A stretch of 64,000 bases of DNA from Terriglobus sp. RCC_193 (GTDB lineage: Bacteria; Acidobacteriota; Terriglobia; Terriglobales; Acidobacteriaceae): assembly GCF_041355105.1 (NCBI RefSeq), contig NZ_JBFUPK010000002.1, forward strand, positions 1,370,037-1,434,036, given 5' to 3'. Numbering within the stretch: position 1 is the first letter of the stretch; each line of letters starts with the position of its first letter. The notes under the pieces were generated by a model. That model ran no database searches and was not told the origin of the DNA. It saw only the letters and a list, made by a program, of their open reading frames with translations. The position numbers were made by a program, and so were the translations under genes. Shown one piece after another: positions 1,693 to 63,330 of the stretch.

Positions 1693-1761
1693 CTGCGTTC
1701 ACTTTCCAGCGTCGTTCACAAAAAAGCTGCGTCCAGGGCGAAGCTCGTACGCGCAAAGCGC

Positions 1762-1926
1762 GTCATCCTGAACGGAGCGCAGCGGAGCTGAAGGACCTGC
1801 ATTTCTTTCCCACACGAGAATGTTTCCGGGAAACAGAAAAACTTCTCAACGAAGCATTCCAGGATGCACAGAAGAATGCAGGTCCTTCGACTTCACTCCG
1901 CTATGCTTCGTTTCGCTCAGGATGAC
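1762..1926. repeat. Inverted pair of dispersed repeat modules (MITE/BIME-like)
   Basis: The left copy (1762-1802) reads GTCATCCTGAACGGAGC onward and ends GGACCTGCAT. The right copy (1876-1926) is its inverted counterpart, starting ATGCAGGTCC and ending CAGGATGAC. About 73 bp lie between them. Just left is a perfect small hairpin, ACGCGC-AAA-GCGCGT (1749-1763). The same module recurs at about 10.57, 31.36, 34.68, 39.35 and 63.0 kb. The pair fills most of the 302-nt gap between the DUF1015 gene and tsaE; no gene is seen in this gap. Confidence 0.8.
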
Positions 1927-8697: not shown

Positions 8698-8975
8698 AGG
8701 CATCAAAGCGAAGCTCAAACGGTCGAAGACCGTCATTCTGAGCGGAGCGAAGAATCCCGATGGATTCTCACTTTCCACAGCTGCCAATTCCCATCCGGCC
8801 ACAAAACCGGGTGCCCCAGGTTCGCGAAGCTAACCTGGGTATTCGTGCAAAGCACGAACCAGCGAAGCTCCCACGCACAGAGTGCCTCATTCGGAAGGGC
8901 AGGGCTTCAGCCCTGCCGTATCGGTTGCAATTGAAGAAGGGGCTTTAGCCCCTGAGGGGAATCTTCCCTCTCAGG
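8698..8975. repeat. Mosaic of dispersed hairpin modules
   Basis: This mosaic fills most of the 332-nt gap before the amidase-like gene. In order: hairpin ACGGTC-GAA-GACCGT (8719-8733) followed by the CATTCTGAGCGGAGC module; CCCCAGGTT...AACCTGGG hairpin (about 8813-8838); TTCGTGC-AAA-GCACGAA (about 8842-8858); GGCAGGGCT-TC-AGCCCTGCC (8898-8917); and GGGGCT-TT-AGCCCC (8939-8952). The words recur at other intergenic sites in the window. No coding capacity is supported. Confidence 0.8.
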
Positions 8976-10498: not shown

Positions 10499-10700
10499 CG
10501 AACTCCGGGTGCCCCAGGTTCGCGAAGCTAACCTGGGTATCGCGCAAAGCGAAGCTCCCACGAACGAAGTTCGTCATCCTGAGCGAAGCCGAAGGACCTG
10601 CATTCTTCTCCTCTCACTACGCTTCATCGGGAGAACCCAAAACTGGGTGCCCCAGGTTCGCGAAGCCAACCTGGGTATCGTGCCAAGCGCGATCTTTCAA
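10499..10700. repeat. Mosaic of dispersed hairpin modules upstream of murI
   Basis: Two copies of the CCCCAGGTT...AACCTGGG hairpin (about 10511-10538 and 10647-10677) flank a hairpin ACGAAC-GAA-GTTCGT (10560-10574) that runs into a GTCATCCTGAGCG module ending GGACCTGCAT. Read in the murI frame the right copy would encode MPQVREANLGI, which makes a false N-terminal extension of murI. Confidence 0.75.
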
Positions 10701-11597: not shown

Positions 11598-12010
11598 CGA
11601 CCCAAGCGAAGCCGCCAAAGGAAACTGGGTGCCCCATGTCTCGATTCTGAGACGTGGGAAAGCGGCAAGGCCGCCTCATTCGACGAAAGCGCAACCAGCG
11701 AAGCTCCAACGGTCGAAGACCGTCATTCTGAGCGCAGGCTAAGAATCCCGACGAACTCTCCTTCCGCCAAGACCGCCACAAGCTTCCAGCCACCAACCCC
11801 AAACCCAGCTTCGCAAGGCGAAGCTCCAACGCGCAAAGCGCGTCTTCTTTGAAGGGGCACGACTTCAGCCGTGCCATAAGAAACCCAAACCAAGAAAACC
11901 GCGCGGCCAAAAAGACAAACAGGAGCATAAATCAAACCCCGCGCGCCCACGGAACGGCCATGGCTGGCACCACGCCGAAGGCGTCGAGAACGGTACGAAG
12001 TACCTGTCAA
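11598..12010. repeat. Long composite repeat, inverted relative to 30860-31290
   Basis: Reading the minus strand from 12010, the block matches the plus strand at about 30866-31240 in the same order of words: a TACTTCGTAC start, a CCATGG-centred stretch, GTTTGTCTTTTTGGCCGCGC, a GGCACG hairpin, ACGCGC hairpin, GGTTTGG word, the TCGTCGGGATTCTT module, an ACGGTC hairpin and the CCCA(C/G)G hairpin. Hairpins here are CCCATGTCTC...GAGACGTGGG (about 11632-11657), GCGGC-AAG-GCCGC, ACGGTC-GAA-GACCGT (11709-11723), ACGCGC-AAA-GCGCGT (11830-11844) and GGCACGACT-TC-AGCCGTGCC (11857-11876). No gene is supported. Confidence 0.8.
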
Positions 12011-12100
12011 GCCCCCAAACCTCCAAACCCAACAAACCAAAAGAAATAGATCTGGCATGTTATTTCCACCAAACCACTAAAATAGAAACAGAAGAGAAAA

Positions 12101-12121
12101 GGGCCGCGCCAAGCGCGGCCC
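12101..12121 (-). terminator. Strong GC hairpin, terminator-like on the minus strand
   Basis: The 9-bp perfect stem GGGCCGCGC / GCGCGGCCC has a 3-nt loop. On the minus strand it is followed by TTTTCTCTTCTG, a U-rich tail; on the plus strand there is none. No minus-strand gene is evident just to the right, so the transcript it would end is unknown. Confidence 0.5.
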
Positions 12122-12649
12122 TAACCCATTTAGAAAGACGATTTTGCCCCTAACCCCAACAGGCAGACGATTTTACAGCCACCAAAACCGTAACCACAAT
12201 CAAAAGAAGATTTTAGAAAACAAGAGGGAGGGGGAGGAGGGGTACCCATCACCTGTGCTACAATTTCCACAGAGTGATTCTGCTCTGTACGTCGCAGGGA
12301 ACGGCCCGAAGTGGATTGGGGCTGGCCAGAGACCGCGATGTTCTGTCCCACCGCTGTATGCCATCCCTTGAACAAATGAGAGGGAAGCGTTGGTTGCTCT
12401 GGCTTAGAAGATCACCTGGACTCTCGAGAGATAGACGCATCAGGCGTTTACCAGACCGGAGCAGCAGGGATAACGATCTCGCCGTGCAGCAGCAAAGGCC
12501 TATCAAACCAATGCTGATCGAATCGATCCATAGTGTTCCGCTCCACGCCTAAGGAGTGAAAACACACCTGCATCACTACAACGAACTGGCAGGCAGGCCG
12601 TCCGCACTGAACGAGGGCGCCGCCGCATACAGACAGAGAAAGACTCCAC
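12122..12649. other. Unexplained 528-nt region before the DEAD-box helicase
   Basis: This region contains no credible gene. It holds two copies of the word CAGACGATTTT/AAGACGATTTT (about 12135-12173), a possible extended -10 (12256-12264) and small hairpins such as CAGAG/CTCTG (about 12270-12287) and ACGC/GCGT (about 12433-12445). It could be a long leader of the helicase mRNA or hold a small RNA. I could not match it to 6S, tmRNA, RNase P or SRP RNA by eye. Confidence 0.3.
12256..12264 (+). promoter_or_regulatory. Possible extended -10 (TGCTACAAT)
   Basis: TGCTACAAT matches the extended -10 form TGnTAtaaT. No clear -35 box is found 17 nt upstream. If used, the helicase transcript would have a leader of nearly 380 nt. 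Confidence 0.3.
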
Positions 12650-30859: not shown

Positions 30860-31480
30860 CTGTACTTCGTACTGTTCTCGACGCCTGTAGTGCCAGCCAT
30901 GGTCGTTCCGTGGGCGCGCGGGGCTTGCTTCATACTCCTGTTTGTCTTTTTGGCCGCGCGGTTTTCTTGGTTTGGGTTTTTATGGCACGGCTGAAGCTGT
31001 GCCCCTTCAAAGAAGACGCGCTTTTGCGCGTTGGAGCTTCGCTTTTGCGAAGCTGGTTTGGTGGGTGGCTGGAAGCGGCTTGTGGGGGCTTTGGCAGGAT
31101 GAGGGTTCGTCGGGATTCTTCGCTGCGCTCAGAATGACGGTCTTTCGACCGTATGAGCTTTGCTCGGAGTCTTTCAACCATTGAGCTTCGCTGGGGATAG
31201 TCTTTGACCGTTGGAGCTTGCTGGTCACGCTTTCGCACGAATGGAGCAGCTTTGCTGCTCTGCTCAGGTTAGCTTCGCGAACCGGGGGCACCCGGTTCTT
31301 TGGCTGGTGGTTGGTTTTGGGTTTCCTGATGCGTTGTAGAGGGTGTGGAGGAATGCAGGTCCTTCAGCTCCGCTTCGCTTCGTTCAGGATGACGGTCTGC
31401 GACTGTATGAGCTTCGCTGGGTGACGGTCTTTGGCCGTTGGAGATTCGCTGGGGATGGTCTTTGAGCGTATGTCTGCTTG
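30860..31480. repeat. Long composite repeat block (partner of 11598-12010)
   Basis: The first 400 bp match the minus strand of the 11598-12010 block, word for word with scattered changes. The rest continues into words shared with 34550-34800. Hairpins include GGCACGGCT-GA-AGCTGTGCC (30984-31003), ACGCGC-TTTT-GCGCGT (31016-31031), ACGGTC-TTTC-GACCGT (31136-31151) and AGCAGC-TTT-GCTGCT (about 31244-31258), plus two CAGAATGAC/CAGGATGAC modules. It fills most of the 843-nt gap between 30818 and 31660. No gene is supported. Confidence 0.8.
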
Positions 31481-31600
31481 CCAAGAGTGAATTTCTTTTT
31501 TACACCGCGACCATGAAACTGCTTCTGATCTTTGCATCTAACAGGCTGCCGCATTGACGTGTATGCGTTCTATCGAATTGCGGTGCAACTGCTGCATCTG

Positions 31601-33440: not shown

Positions 33441-34325
33441 CTACAGGGTGATGAGGGCTACTGCGGGTAAGGCGAGGAGCATGCCAAGGCGTTGGCGGCG
33501 AGAGGCTTTTTCGTGCAATAGCCAGGCTGCGAGCAGGATGGTTCCGGCGGGATAGATGGAGGCCAGTACCGCGGCGACGTCGAGGCGTCCCATGCGGGTG
33601 GCGGTCAGGTAGCTGAGATTGCCACCGGTGTCCAGGAGCGAGCCTCCGAGTATGTAGAGCAGTGTCTTTGCGTGGCGTGGATCGGGACGGCCTTTTTCGC
33701 GGAACGGCAACAGCAGAAGCAGGAGCAATATGGCCAGGGCGGTGGTGGACGAGCCGATACGGGCTGAGGCCATGCCCCACAGGACGCCGGATTGCCCTGC
33801 GAATTTCAGAGCTACGAAGTACATGCCGAAGCCGATGCCGCCGAGGATGGAAAGCGCCATTGCCTGTTGTGAGGCGGTGTGCGTGGGGTCGTTGGATGAG
33901 GCGATCATCCAGATGGCCGTTCCGGCGAGCAGGAAGCCGATGAGGCGGAGCAGGCCGGGTGCGCCGTCGAGGAAGGCGGAGACGACGGCGGGGACGATGG
34001 CGCAGAGGAGTCCGCTGACGGCGGCTGCTGAGCCCATGTGTCCGGTCGAGAGTGCGATGTAAAAGGCCACCAGCGAGACGGCTGCGATGACGCCTCCGCC
34101 GATGCCCCACCACAGGGCGGCGCCGGTGGGGAAGGGATCGCCGTGGAGGGCGGCCAGGGTGGCGACGACGGTGAGGCTGAGAAGATGGCCGATGAAAACG
34201 ACCAGCAGGGCTCCGCGGACGGTGCTGCCCACGCGACGGACGGCGATGGAGCCGGCGAAGTCGCCACCACCCCACAGGGCTGCGGCAAGCAGTCCGAAGG
34301 CCGCGTTTGCCCCGAGGAAGGTCAT
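33441..34325 (-). CDS. EamA/DMT-family transporter
   Basis: The 294-residue protein has ten hydrophobic helices in two five-TM halves, as in EamA (drug/metabolite) transporters. The first half starts NAAFGLLAAALWGGGDFAGS and the second ALSILGGIGFGMYFVALKF, with the WLLHEKASRRQRLGM end typical of the last TM pair. It exports or imports small metabolites across the inner membrane; substrate unknown. Stands alone, convergent with ohyA. Confidence 0.85.
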   Translation of the reverse strand: MTFLGANAAFGLLAAALWGGGDFAGSIAVRRVGSTVRGALLVVFIGHLLSLTVVATLAALHGDPFPTGAALWWGIGGGVIAAVSLVAFYIALSTGHMGSAAAVSGLLCAIVPAVVSAFLDGAPGLLRLIGFLLAGTAIWMIASSNDPTHTASQQAMALSILGGIGFGMYFVALKFAGQSGVLWGMASARIGSSTTALAILLLLLLLPFREKGRPDPRHAKTLLYILGGSLLDTGGNLSYLTATRMGRLDVAAVLASIYPAGTILLAAWLLHEKASRRQRLGMLLALPAVALITL

Positions 34326-34384
34326 ACTTAATGTTACCCTTACGGGTTTTTGATGGGGCCTTACGATAGGCTTTCACTCTGCTC

Positions 34385-34970
34385 GTTCCGAGAGGGGACG
34401 ACCTTCGGTCGTTTGGGCTTCGCCTTGCGAAGCTGGTTTGGGTTTGGTGGCTGGAAGCTTGTGGGGTCTTGGCAGGATGAGGGTTCGTCGGGATTCTTCG
34501 CTGCGCTCAGAATGACTGTCTTTGCCCGGTGGGAGCTTCACTGGTTCACGCTTTCGCGTGAATGGAGCAGCTTTGCTGCTCGGCCCAGGTTAGCTTCGCG
34601 AACCTGGGGCACCCGGTTCTTTGGTTGGTGGTTTGTTGGGGTTTCCTGGTGCGTTGTAGAGGGTTGAGGGAATGCAGGTCCTTCGGCTTCACTTCGTTTC
34701 GCTCAGGATGACGATTCTTCGAATCGTATGAGCTTCGCTGGATGACGGTCGACTTCACTTCGTTTTGCTCAGGATGACGGTCTTCGACCGTTTGAGCTTC
34801 GCTGGGGGATGCACTTGTGTGCGTTGGATCGCGGTACTTCGTACGGTTCTCGAAATGCTGCGCGATGGCCCACGTCTCAGAATCGAGACGTGGGGCACCC
34901 GGCGTGTAACGTTCTCGAAAAGCCGCGCGATGCCCAGGTTCATTAGGCGAACCTGGTGCACCCGTTGCGT
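34385..34970. repeat. Composite repeat with hairpin-swapped tandem copies
   Basis: This mosaic fills most of the 651-nt gap. Hairpins include ACGACC-TTC-GGTCGT (34398-34412), AGCAGC-TTT-GCTGCT (about 34566-34580), CCCAGGTT...AACCTGGG, ACGATTC-TTC-GAATCGT (34711-34727) and ACGGTC-TTC-GACCGT (34777-34791). At 34849-34963 the same flank (GTTCTCGAAA, then GCGCGATG) occurs twice, once with stem CCCACGTCTC/GAGACGTGGG (34869-34894), once with CCAGGTT/AACCTGG (34934-34956). No gene is supported. Confidence 0.8.
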
Positions 34971-39188: not shown

Positions 39189-39418
39189 GTACTTCGTATG
39201 GTGCTTGTGAGCGGAGACGAACTTCGTTCGTTTGATCGCACTTATGTGCGATACCCAGGTTAGCTTCGCGAACCTGGGGCACCCGGTTTCGTGGCTGCTG
39301 ATTCGTTTGGGCTGCCGATGCGTTGTAGAAGGCTGAGAAGAAAGCAGGTCCTTTGGCTTCACTTCGTTTCGCTCAGGATGACGGTCTTCAACCGTACGAG
39401 CTTCGCTGGATTTGTTGA
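39189..39418. repeat. Mosaic of dispersed hairpin modules
   Basis: Hairpins ACGAAC-TTC-GTTCGT (39217-39231), CCCAGGTT...AACCTGGG (about 39254-39279) and an imperfect ACGGT...ACCGT (39381-39396) with the GCTCAGGATGAC module. Fills the gap between yqeY and the GT39-like gene. No gene. Confidence 0.7.
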
Positions 39419-62984: not shown

Positions 62985-63330
62985 TACAGTCCGTCATCCT
63001 GAGCGGAGCACGAAGTGCGGAGTCGGAGGACGCGCTTTCTCAGTGAAATCGTAGTGAGTGACAAGAAAGCAGGTCCTTCAGCTCCGCTTCGCTTCGTTCA
63101 GGATGACGAACTTCGTTCGTATGAGCTTCGCTGGTTCGCGCTTTGCGCGAAGAACCCAGGTTAGCTTCGCGAACCTGGGGCACCCGGATTTTGCGGCTGG
63201 AAGTTCGAGCGGTTGTGGGCGCTGGGAGTCTATCGGGATCCTTCGCTTTGCTCAGGATGACGCGCTTTGCGCGTACGAGCTTCGCTTAGATGCAAGCGAT
63301 AATGTGTTTGCGCTCCGCTCAGAATGACAA
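62985..63330. repeat. Inverted pair of modules and hairpin mosaic
   Basis: A GTCATCCTGAGC module (62993-63040) faces an inverted copy (63064-63107), making a 115-bp MITE-like unit. Then come ACGAAC-TTC-GTTCGT (63106-63120), TTCGCGC-TTT-GCGCGAA (about 63135-63151), CCCAGGTT...AACCTGGG, and ACGCGC-TTT-GCGCGT (63260-63274) with CTCAGGATGAC and CTCAGAATGAC modules. It fills most of the 421-nt gap. No gene is supported. Confidence 0.8.

Follow-up and report, generated by a model that had tools for sequence, protein, structure and literature searches.

The window analysed here, a stretch of 64,000 nucleotides (C2:1370037-1434036) from the Terriglobus sp. RCC_193 genome (4.22 Mb, nine contigs), contains small hairpins with differing stems on both strands, together with palindromic repeats that stand next to them (Table 1). 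When six named genomes were compared with a 7.3-kb piece, Edaphobacter aggregans matched best (75% over 1.7 kb), followed by two further Edaphobacter genomes and a Granulicella at 72-75%. In the whole genome, well over 100 such hairpins adjoin palindromic REP-like repeats. The unit, which we call the cassette, reads ACG NN C - loop - G NN CGT, followed by two bases and GAGCTTCGC; the loop is mostly TTC or TTT, and the repeat upstream of most copies terminates in CTCAGGATGAC or CTCAGAATGAC. All 13 hairpins listed in a first-pass annotation of this DNA were present, within about one base of where it had placed them, and all their stems are complementary. Its description of the flanks as nearly fixed holds for nine of the 13, which have ATGAC at the 5' side and GAGCTTCGC (once GAGCTTTGC) at the 3' side, and fails for four. 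The hairpins at 31016 and 11830 keep the tail but follow another repeat, named REP2, which ends in CTTCAAAGAAG or a similar sequence; those at 39217 and 34398 have flanks other than ATGAC and GAGCTTCGC.

Table 1. Hairpins and head repeats in the window (positions are those of the window)
Positions	Strand	Feature	Remark
1749..1763	-	hairpin ACGCGC-TTT-GCGCGT	
8719..8733	-	hairpin ACGGTC-TTC-GACCGT	
8898..8917	-	REP2 palindrome GGCAGGGCTTCAGCCCTGCC	
10560..10574	-	hairpin ACGAAC-TTC-GTTCGT	
11709..11723	-	hairpin ACGGTC-TTC-GACCGT	
11829..11843	-	hairpin ACGCGC-TTT-GCGCGT	3' of REP2-like repeat
30984..31003	+	REP2 palindrome (GGCACGGCTGAAGCTGTGCC)	heads hairpin at 31016
31016..31031	+	hairpin ACGCGC-TTTT-GCGCGT	3' of REP2
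31137..31152	+	hairpin ACGGTC-TTTC-GACCGT	
31392..31406	+	hairpin ACGGTC-TGC-GACTGT	one G.T pair; within chain of hairpin units
34398..34412	+	hairpin ACGACC-TTC-GGTCGT	other flanks
34670..34713	+	CGTC-REP-like head (GAATGCAGGTCCTTCGG...CTCAGGATGACG)	reverse complement starts CGTCATCCTGAGC
34711..34727	+	hairpin ACGATTC-TTC-GAATCGT	longer stem type; 3 exact copies genome-wide
34730..34738	+	cassette tail GAGCTTCGC	
34777..34791	+	hairpin ACGGTC-TTC-GACCGT	REP-like head 5', GAGCTTCGC 3'
39217..39231	+	hairpin ACGAAC-TTC-GTTCGT	other flanks; element absent from site in G003, G013
39381..39395	+	hairpin ACGGTC-TTC-AACCGT	one C.A mismatch
63106..63120	+	hairpin ACGAAC-TTC-GTTCGT	
63260..63274	+	hairpin ACGCGC-TTT-GCGCGT	

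Single-strand DNA folding of four examples from the window gave the local stem in three, and the energies were no better than those of shuffles (z from -1.16 to +1.22). A plasmid search with one stretch of the window gave no match.

Copies and pairing of the stems across the genome

The pattern ACGNNCTTYGNNCGT, in which the four variable bases are free, has 200 matches in the genome against 17 for the reversed pattern. Both free pairs are complementary in 80 of the 100 matches that were listed, and shuffling their arms gave 17 complementary matches, with a maximum of 33 in 5000 shuffles. The looser pattern ATGACN{7,19}GAGCTTCGC was found 166 times (control 0), and a pattern with one extra stem base, matched 10 times against 13 in the control, revealed the frame of the motif. 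The complete cassette had no match in the GTDB contigs scanned, a set that possibly leaves out near relatives.

Copies for the pair tests were drawn from 1.14 Mb of the genome, picked largely around pattern matches; 167 copies in this sample have head and tail, and the 126 with a 15-nt middle were used. All four inner positions are paired in 97 of the 126, whereas arm shuffles reached a mean of 30 and a maximum of 46 (2000 shuffles); the other 29 stems are imperfect, and the perfect ones use nine of the 16 possible inner dinucleotides. The alignment of the 126 copies (92 distinct) showed 95.8% of cells paired (shuffles 83.3%), a change on both sides in 74 cells (shuffles 19.6) and a covariation score of 0.373 (shuffles 0.114), values that none of 500 shuffles reached. 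Related copies can beat shuffles without any structure. The measures least inflated by relatedness are the number of pairs with both-sided change and the number of further pair types, and both are weak here: 2 against 2.1 for the former (498 of 500 shuffles as high, just two pairs varying freely) and 13 against 11.1 for the latter (31 of 500 as high). Slid registers all scored far below the true register, and this control, together with the nine inner dinucleotides, favours real pairing. The both-sided change is confined to inner pairs 2 and 3; of the six pairs counted, the remaining four hardly vary. These data bear out the earlier claim that both arms change together across paralogues.

The intergenic part of the sample also holds further series of hairpins with TTC- or TTT-like loops and varying paired stems (ATCGCGC, ATCGCTCC and ATCGCAC; TTCGTGC, TTCACGC and TTCGCGC), so that stem variation is wider than the ACG-NN-C motif.

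The two head repeats and the RAYT-like genes

The cassette follows two REP-like repeats. A regular expression found 126 perfect cassettes in the sample behind the first, 17 behind REP2, 12 behind the tail of another cassette and 24 elsewhere, and the stem type follows the head: GCGC occurs in 11 of the 17 behind REP2, and GGTC is the commonest behind the first head. The first head, whose core 14-mer TCGCTCAGRATGAC has 153 matches genome-wide and none in the control, starts in reverse complement with CGTCATCCTGAGC or CGTCATTCTGAGCGAAG, that is, with a CGTC tag at one end, followed by AT and a palindrome (forms CGTCATTCTGAG... and CGTCATCCTGAG...). The copies lie mainly between genes, 119 of 167 being outside ORFs by crude ORF calls. 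The tail is found within 30 bases of 111 of the 206 exact heads in the sample, so that about half carry a cassette. An opposite head lies within 200 bases of 22 of the 206 and a head of the same orientation near 69, and head plus cassette do not form a hairpin of two inverted REPs.

This build resembles that of the CGTC-tagged REPs (PMC3733652), which in the accessible text also show CGTC, AT and a palindrome, occur in many copies, have no bracketed transposase gene and are described as being without a dedicated transposase. The resemblance is incomplete. The accessible part of that source gives a stem of 8-9 bp and a loop of 4-5 nt, whereas the head CGTCATTCTGAGCGAAGCGAAGAAT (read by eye from the 26-mer core) has nine stem positions, two of them mismatched, and a loop of 3 nt; for this reason we name it CGTC-REP-like and do not call it a member. 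Five phyla are listed there for CGTC repeats, Acidobacteria not among them. In addition, the CGTC tag here sits, in the reverse-complement reading, inside the 3' arm of the adjoining variable-stem hairpin, an arrangement not seen for CGTC-tagged REPs in the accessible part of PMC3733652. The outer pairs of the hairpin are perhaps fixed because the tag lies in that arm.

The 26-mer CGTC core, CGTCATTCTGAGCGAAGCGAAGAATC, was found letter for letter in at least 120 stretches (L168-L247 among these), and a stem of at least 5 bp overlaps the tag in three of the 80 matches read. By their titles, the records with exact CGTCATTCTGAGCGAAGCGAAGAATC presumably come from well over a dozen phyla. Such identity across phyla suggests recent or continuing horizontal spread of this REP-like repeat. 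The letters of the head core had no match in the text of the open literature searched.

REP2 reads GGCAGGGCTGAAGCCCTGCCCTTCCGAAAGAAG or GGCACGGC..., and carries the cassette likewise at its 3' side. A regular expression for it returned 65 rows, relatives included and most palindromes counted on both strands. Its own stems also vary (GGCAGGGC, GGCACGGC, and GGCCCGGC upstream of the second RAYT-like gene described below). Five Y1_Tnp genes are present in the genome, and the one at G000:C2:17557 (L006) is bracketed by inverted REP2 copies of about 75 nt, the downstream copy carrying a variant hairpin, TCGCGC-TTC-GCGCGA, followed by TGGAGC. The product of this gene scores 110 bits against the NCBI model for REP-associated tyrosine transposases (NF047646, cut-off 80), and its sole PDB match is TnpArep (4er8, E 7e-12). 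The second RAYT-like gene, at G000:C1:619855 (L008), is 50% identical to it and has just upstream a palindrome that resembles REP2 but has a stem of a third type, GGCCCGGC-TTTA-GCCGGGCC; its neighbours, from their translation, are presumably carbamoyl-phosphate synthase genes.

REP2 thus resembles the REP-rayt-REP units of PMC2817692, in which inverted copies bracket a RAYT gene. It differs from these and from the TnpA-REP substrates, as far as the accessible text of PMC2817692 and PMC8266576 describes them, in carrying the extra cassette and in having neither GTAG nor GTGG at the head as read: by eye, the palindrome is flanked by TTCTTTCGGAAG and by GTA(A/C) or ATAA. Neither head repeat, CGTC-like or REP2, has GTAG at the head as read. 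The CGTC-like head brackets none of the five Y1_Tnp genes in the roughly 1.5 kb read on each side, which leaves the mobility of that head unexplained and counts against the explanation that we favour below.

Neither the C2:17557 gene nor its 50% relative was found in the sister species G003 and G013. The three Y1_Tnp genes of these sisters are orthologues, at 90-95% identity, of two others in this genome. The pattern ATGACN{7,19}GAGCTTCGC, matched 166 times here, has 3 and 10 matches in G003 and G013; the association between RAYT presence and cassette abundance is a correlation across three genomes. The congeners G002 and G008 have 7 to 10 Y1_Tnp genes and few matches to the pattern, mostly of another sort, indicating that Y1 genes per se do not bring the cassette.

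Stem changes among paralogues and at orthologous sites

Paralogue pairs were binned by their flank differences over 56 nt. At two or fewer differences (52 pairs), the stem is the same in 22, differs on one arm in 18 and on both arms in 9, and is mixed in 3; at 3-5 differences (232 pairs) the corresponding numbers are 84, 30, 101 and 17, and at 6-10 differences (780 pairs) they are 184, 105, 394 and 97. One-sided differences lead in the nearest pairs alone, and both-sided ones overtake them faster than the flanks change. So quick a takeover is as expected from whole-hairpin exchange, and by itself is also compatible with fast change in place. The lead of one-sided differences in the nearest pairs favours the explanation that we prefer below; the 101 both-sided against 30 one-sided pairs at 3-5 differences and the 9 both-sided among the 52 nearest pairs count against it.

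In L009:2432-2560 hairpin units of about 38 nt, each with a REP-like end, stand in tandem, an instance of unit duplication, and the array in L009 reads GGTC/GGCC twice and then GACC/GGCC twice, a one-sided change among fresh duplicates. Chimaeric stems also occur (GCGC with GTTC, GACC with GACC, GCAC with GTTC), as do wobble intermediates. The stem families are discrete, as indicated by the information that non-paired columns share (0.54-0.75 bit, against 0.90 and 1.30 for the paired columns), and are partly bound to their heads. The picture of a few discrete families without transitions, which the first-pass annotation had named as the outcome that would speak against it, therefore applies to the discreteness and not to the transitions. 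A separate tandem array with a short unit, roughly CAATCAAGCACCGAAGA, lies at L037:15590-16480 in G000 and is absent from the equivalent place in G013.

Seen in a single genome, whole-hairpin turnover looks like compensatory mutation in place, and orthologous comparison separates the two. The aligned flanks of G003 and G013 are mostly 90-95% alike mutually and mostly 84-92% alike to this genome. We excluded intragenic head matches due to chance (L070:2797 and L072:1852, for example), the hairpin L037:16287 (strand misfit) and those additional units of L040 and L049 that had no counterpart. This left 16 comparisons at ten sites, small numbers whose classing rests partly on the reading of alignments. 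Nine of the 16 show an identical stem, a change on one arm per changed pair, or only an indel or loop change (L034:4335/L071, L034:7297/L077:5020, L081/L121, L070/L091, L049:1926/L075, L040:5575/L080, L087/L076, L023/L082 and the heavily decayed L010/L126).

In five comparisons a whole hairpin was replaced or added, mostly with changes in heads or neighbouring modules as well. These are L082/L073 (GGCC versus GATTC with a mismatched partner, and 2 differences in the 42-nt head), L071/L077:2320, L123/L091 and L102/L084 (heads differ too), and L137 against L081 and L121. The last is the clearest whole-unit case: the same 42-nt head is present in three species, two of them with a GCAC hairpin, while in the third (L137) an extra 34-nt GGCC unit is inserted between the head and a GCAC-type hairpin. 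The sequence 3' of the GCAC hairpin differs, and a global alignment matches the sisters' GCAC hairpin to the GGCC one. A pair changed on both arms in the two remaining comparisons, L010/L072 (GACC to GAAC, a change of C-G to A-T in an otherwise unchanged stem, with different surrounding modules) and the second hairpin of L049/L075.

The element is absent from a sister at six further sites (L062/L061, L069/L122 with about 122 nt, L074/L127, L080/L129, L084/L135, and window 39217-39395 against L061 and L062); some of the missing stretches exceed the element, and the L080 and L084 sites also gave a comparison with this genome. In this small sample, therefore, whole hairpins were gained, lost and replaced at orthologous sites, and the traceable ones mostly changed one arm per pair. 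The comparison of orthologous sites, which the first-pass annotation had proposed, shows at single sites something other than the paired change across paralogues. Change on both arms is thus mostly whole-hairpin turnover, a caution for any covariation test on paralogous repeats. Synteny is broken across the repeat clusters at 31000-31500 and 34300-34970 of the window in both sister species, as if rearrangements had used the repeats there.

Origin of the variable stems

Bacterial interspersed mosaic elements (BIMEs) are mosaics of REPs and short modules with a variable number of units. The mosaic build described here is alike, and its modules are small hairpins with interchangeable stems. We consider it probable (about 0.65) that the hairpin is a short cassette attached to REP-type repeats in BIME-like mosaics, and that its diversity comes from turnover of whole units plus lineages held to a fold recognised by a RAYT. 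The two arms would differ together mainly because the hairpin moves, duplicates, recombines or is lost in one piece. Over long periods, the stem types would have arisen within lineages of copies that were active, where a RAYT-like HUH enzyme would have to bind the folded single strand and would need pairing while accepting any pair in mid-stem; inactive copies would then decay uncorrected. Complementarity would persist since the hairpin travels as a unit and unpaired copies (the 29 imperfect ones) seem not to found families, and active copies, we infer, are kept paired by selection for a fold whose structure a RAYT could recognise.

Published work on TnpA-REP agrees with this reading in part. 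In the accessible portions of PMC8266576, a stem mismatch nearly abolishes or seriously reduces cleavage in Stenotrophomonas and Marinomonas, and stem positions 2 and 3 of the Marinomonas substrate can be changed with no effect, the same pattern as the free inner pairs here. The same portions describe GTAG as crucial and a mismatched bulge as required by the E. coli enzyme, and these requirements do not fit the repeats studied here and argue against our preferred reading. A bolder form of that reading, that a RAYT-type transposase reads the small hairpin by fold alone, and that two REP-like repeats have captured this fold as an exchangeable handle, one of the two belonging to the CGTC kind, which otherwise lacks a transposase, we regard as speculative and rather doubtful. 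If it were true, stems would be free to drift in compensated pairs, and several distinct handles could exist in one genome.

Parts of this picture are already published. Compensatory changes in REPIN hairpins are reported in PMC3116915 and palindrome-preserving changes in REPs in PMC2817692, where modified REPs retain their palindromes, as far as the accessible text of each goes. The cassette resembles REPINs in being a REP-linked, dispersed and RAYT-associated hairpin with compensatory two-sided changes across copies. It differs from the REPIN of the accessible text of PMC3116915, which is a hairpin of two inverted REPs and a spacer, in being a 15-nt unit after one head, and, unlike it, is common to two repeats and found in chains. 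A variable-stem cassette common to a CGTC-like REP and a RAYT-bracketing REP was not found in the open literature searched, part of which was accessible in excerpts. Being shared in this way makes it a concrete candidate for the means by which CGTC-tagged REPs spread.

Gene conversion or homologous recombination between paralogous mosaics, with head and tail as the homology, could also swap stems whole. This has somewhat less than an even chance of being the cause, and is one route of unit turnover, so that it overlaps with the explanation preferred above. The same stem types recur within the same flanks, the chimaeric stems are those that an exchange point in the loop would yield, and L082 and L073 have nearly the same head with different stems. 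However, fixed homology on the tail side amounts to just about 10 nt, units are gained or lost or the head is altered in several of the whole-hairpin cases, and the origin of the stem types is left unexplained.

That the hairpins are RNA structures at gene ends, terminators or mRNA stabilisers kept paired through selection on host fitness, is unlikely, although roles of this type have been proposed for REPs in the accessible text of PMC3733652. Judged by crude ORF calls, convergent context is enriched (51 of the 116 copies that were placed, background 129 of 509 gaps) and divergent context depleted (12 of 116, background 108 of 509), and 39 of the 53 copies between tandem genes have the motif on the antisense strand; but neutral REPs would also sit at gene ends. 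The convergent enrichment counts equally for the explanation preferred above. The orthologous hairpins are decayed or absent in the sisters, the mismatches (16 G.T versus 10 A.C) show no clear bias on either strand and point to no particular folded strand, and no Rfam family covers the hairpins in the window, where one tRNA was found.

Still less probable is template switching within the hairpin at replication, by which one arm is copied onto the other and mutations are corrected or spread in one event. The accessible text of PMC8794818 proposes that such switching creates and maintains the hairpins of RNA genes, with loop inversion as one pattern. Both arms change together there as here, and a loop-sparing switch could explain the change from C-G to A-T in L010/L072. 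Here, however, no loop is inverted: the 126 loops are TTC (52), TTT (48), TGC (10), TAC (5) and others (11), none being the inverse of TTC or TTT. The mismatches of the imperfect stems stand uncorrected, and traceable orthologous hairpins drift mostly on one arm. On these three grounds we rejected template switching as the main cause. The first-pass annotation had offered selection on the folded form or strand switching, and long-term selection on the fold is the one that best accounts for the diversity of stems.

Very little remains of the idea that the covariation is an artefact of a few old families and a palindrome-demanding search: the information shared by non-paired columns and the two of five covariation measures not clearly above shuffles favour it, but the sampling patterns leave the variable bases free of any demand for complementarity, perfect stems use more than half of the possible inner dinucleotides, and chance and search artefact are largely refuted by the shuffles, the pair statistics and the complementarity among the listed matches.

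Another interspersed repeat, about 240 bp long and distinct from these, lies at window positions 12004-12234 and at L006:2340-2581 and L011:15396-15638, with no Rfam match in the window and at least 20 matches, mostly at 74-90% identity, in each of G000, G003 and G013. A strong GC hairpin lies at its centre, motifs like AGAAAGACGATTTT recur in it, and three pieces gave RNA folding z values of -3.2 to -3.6; a structured RNA and a MITE are candidate identities.
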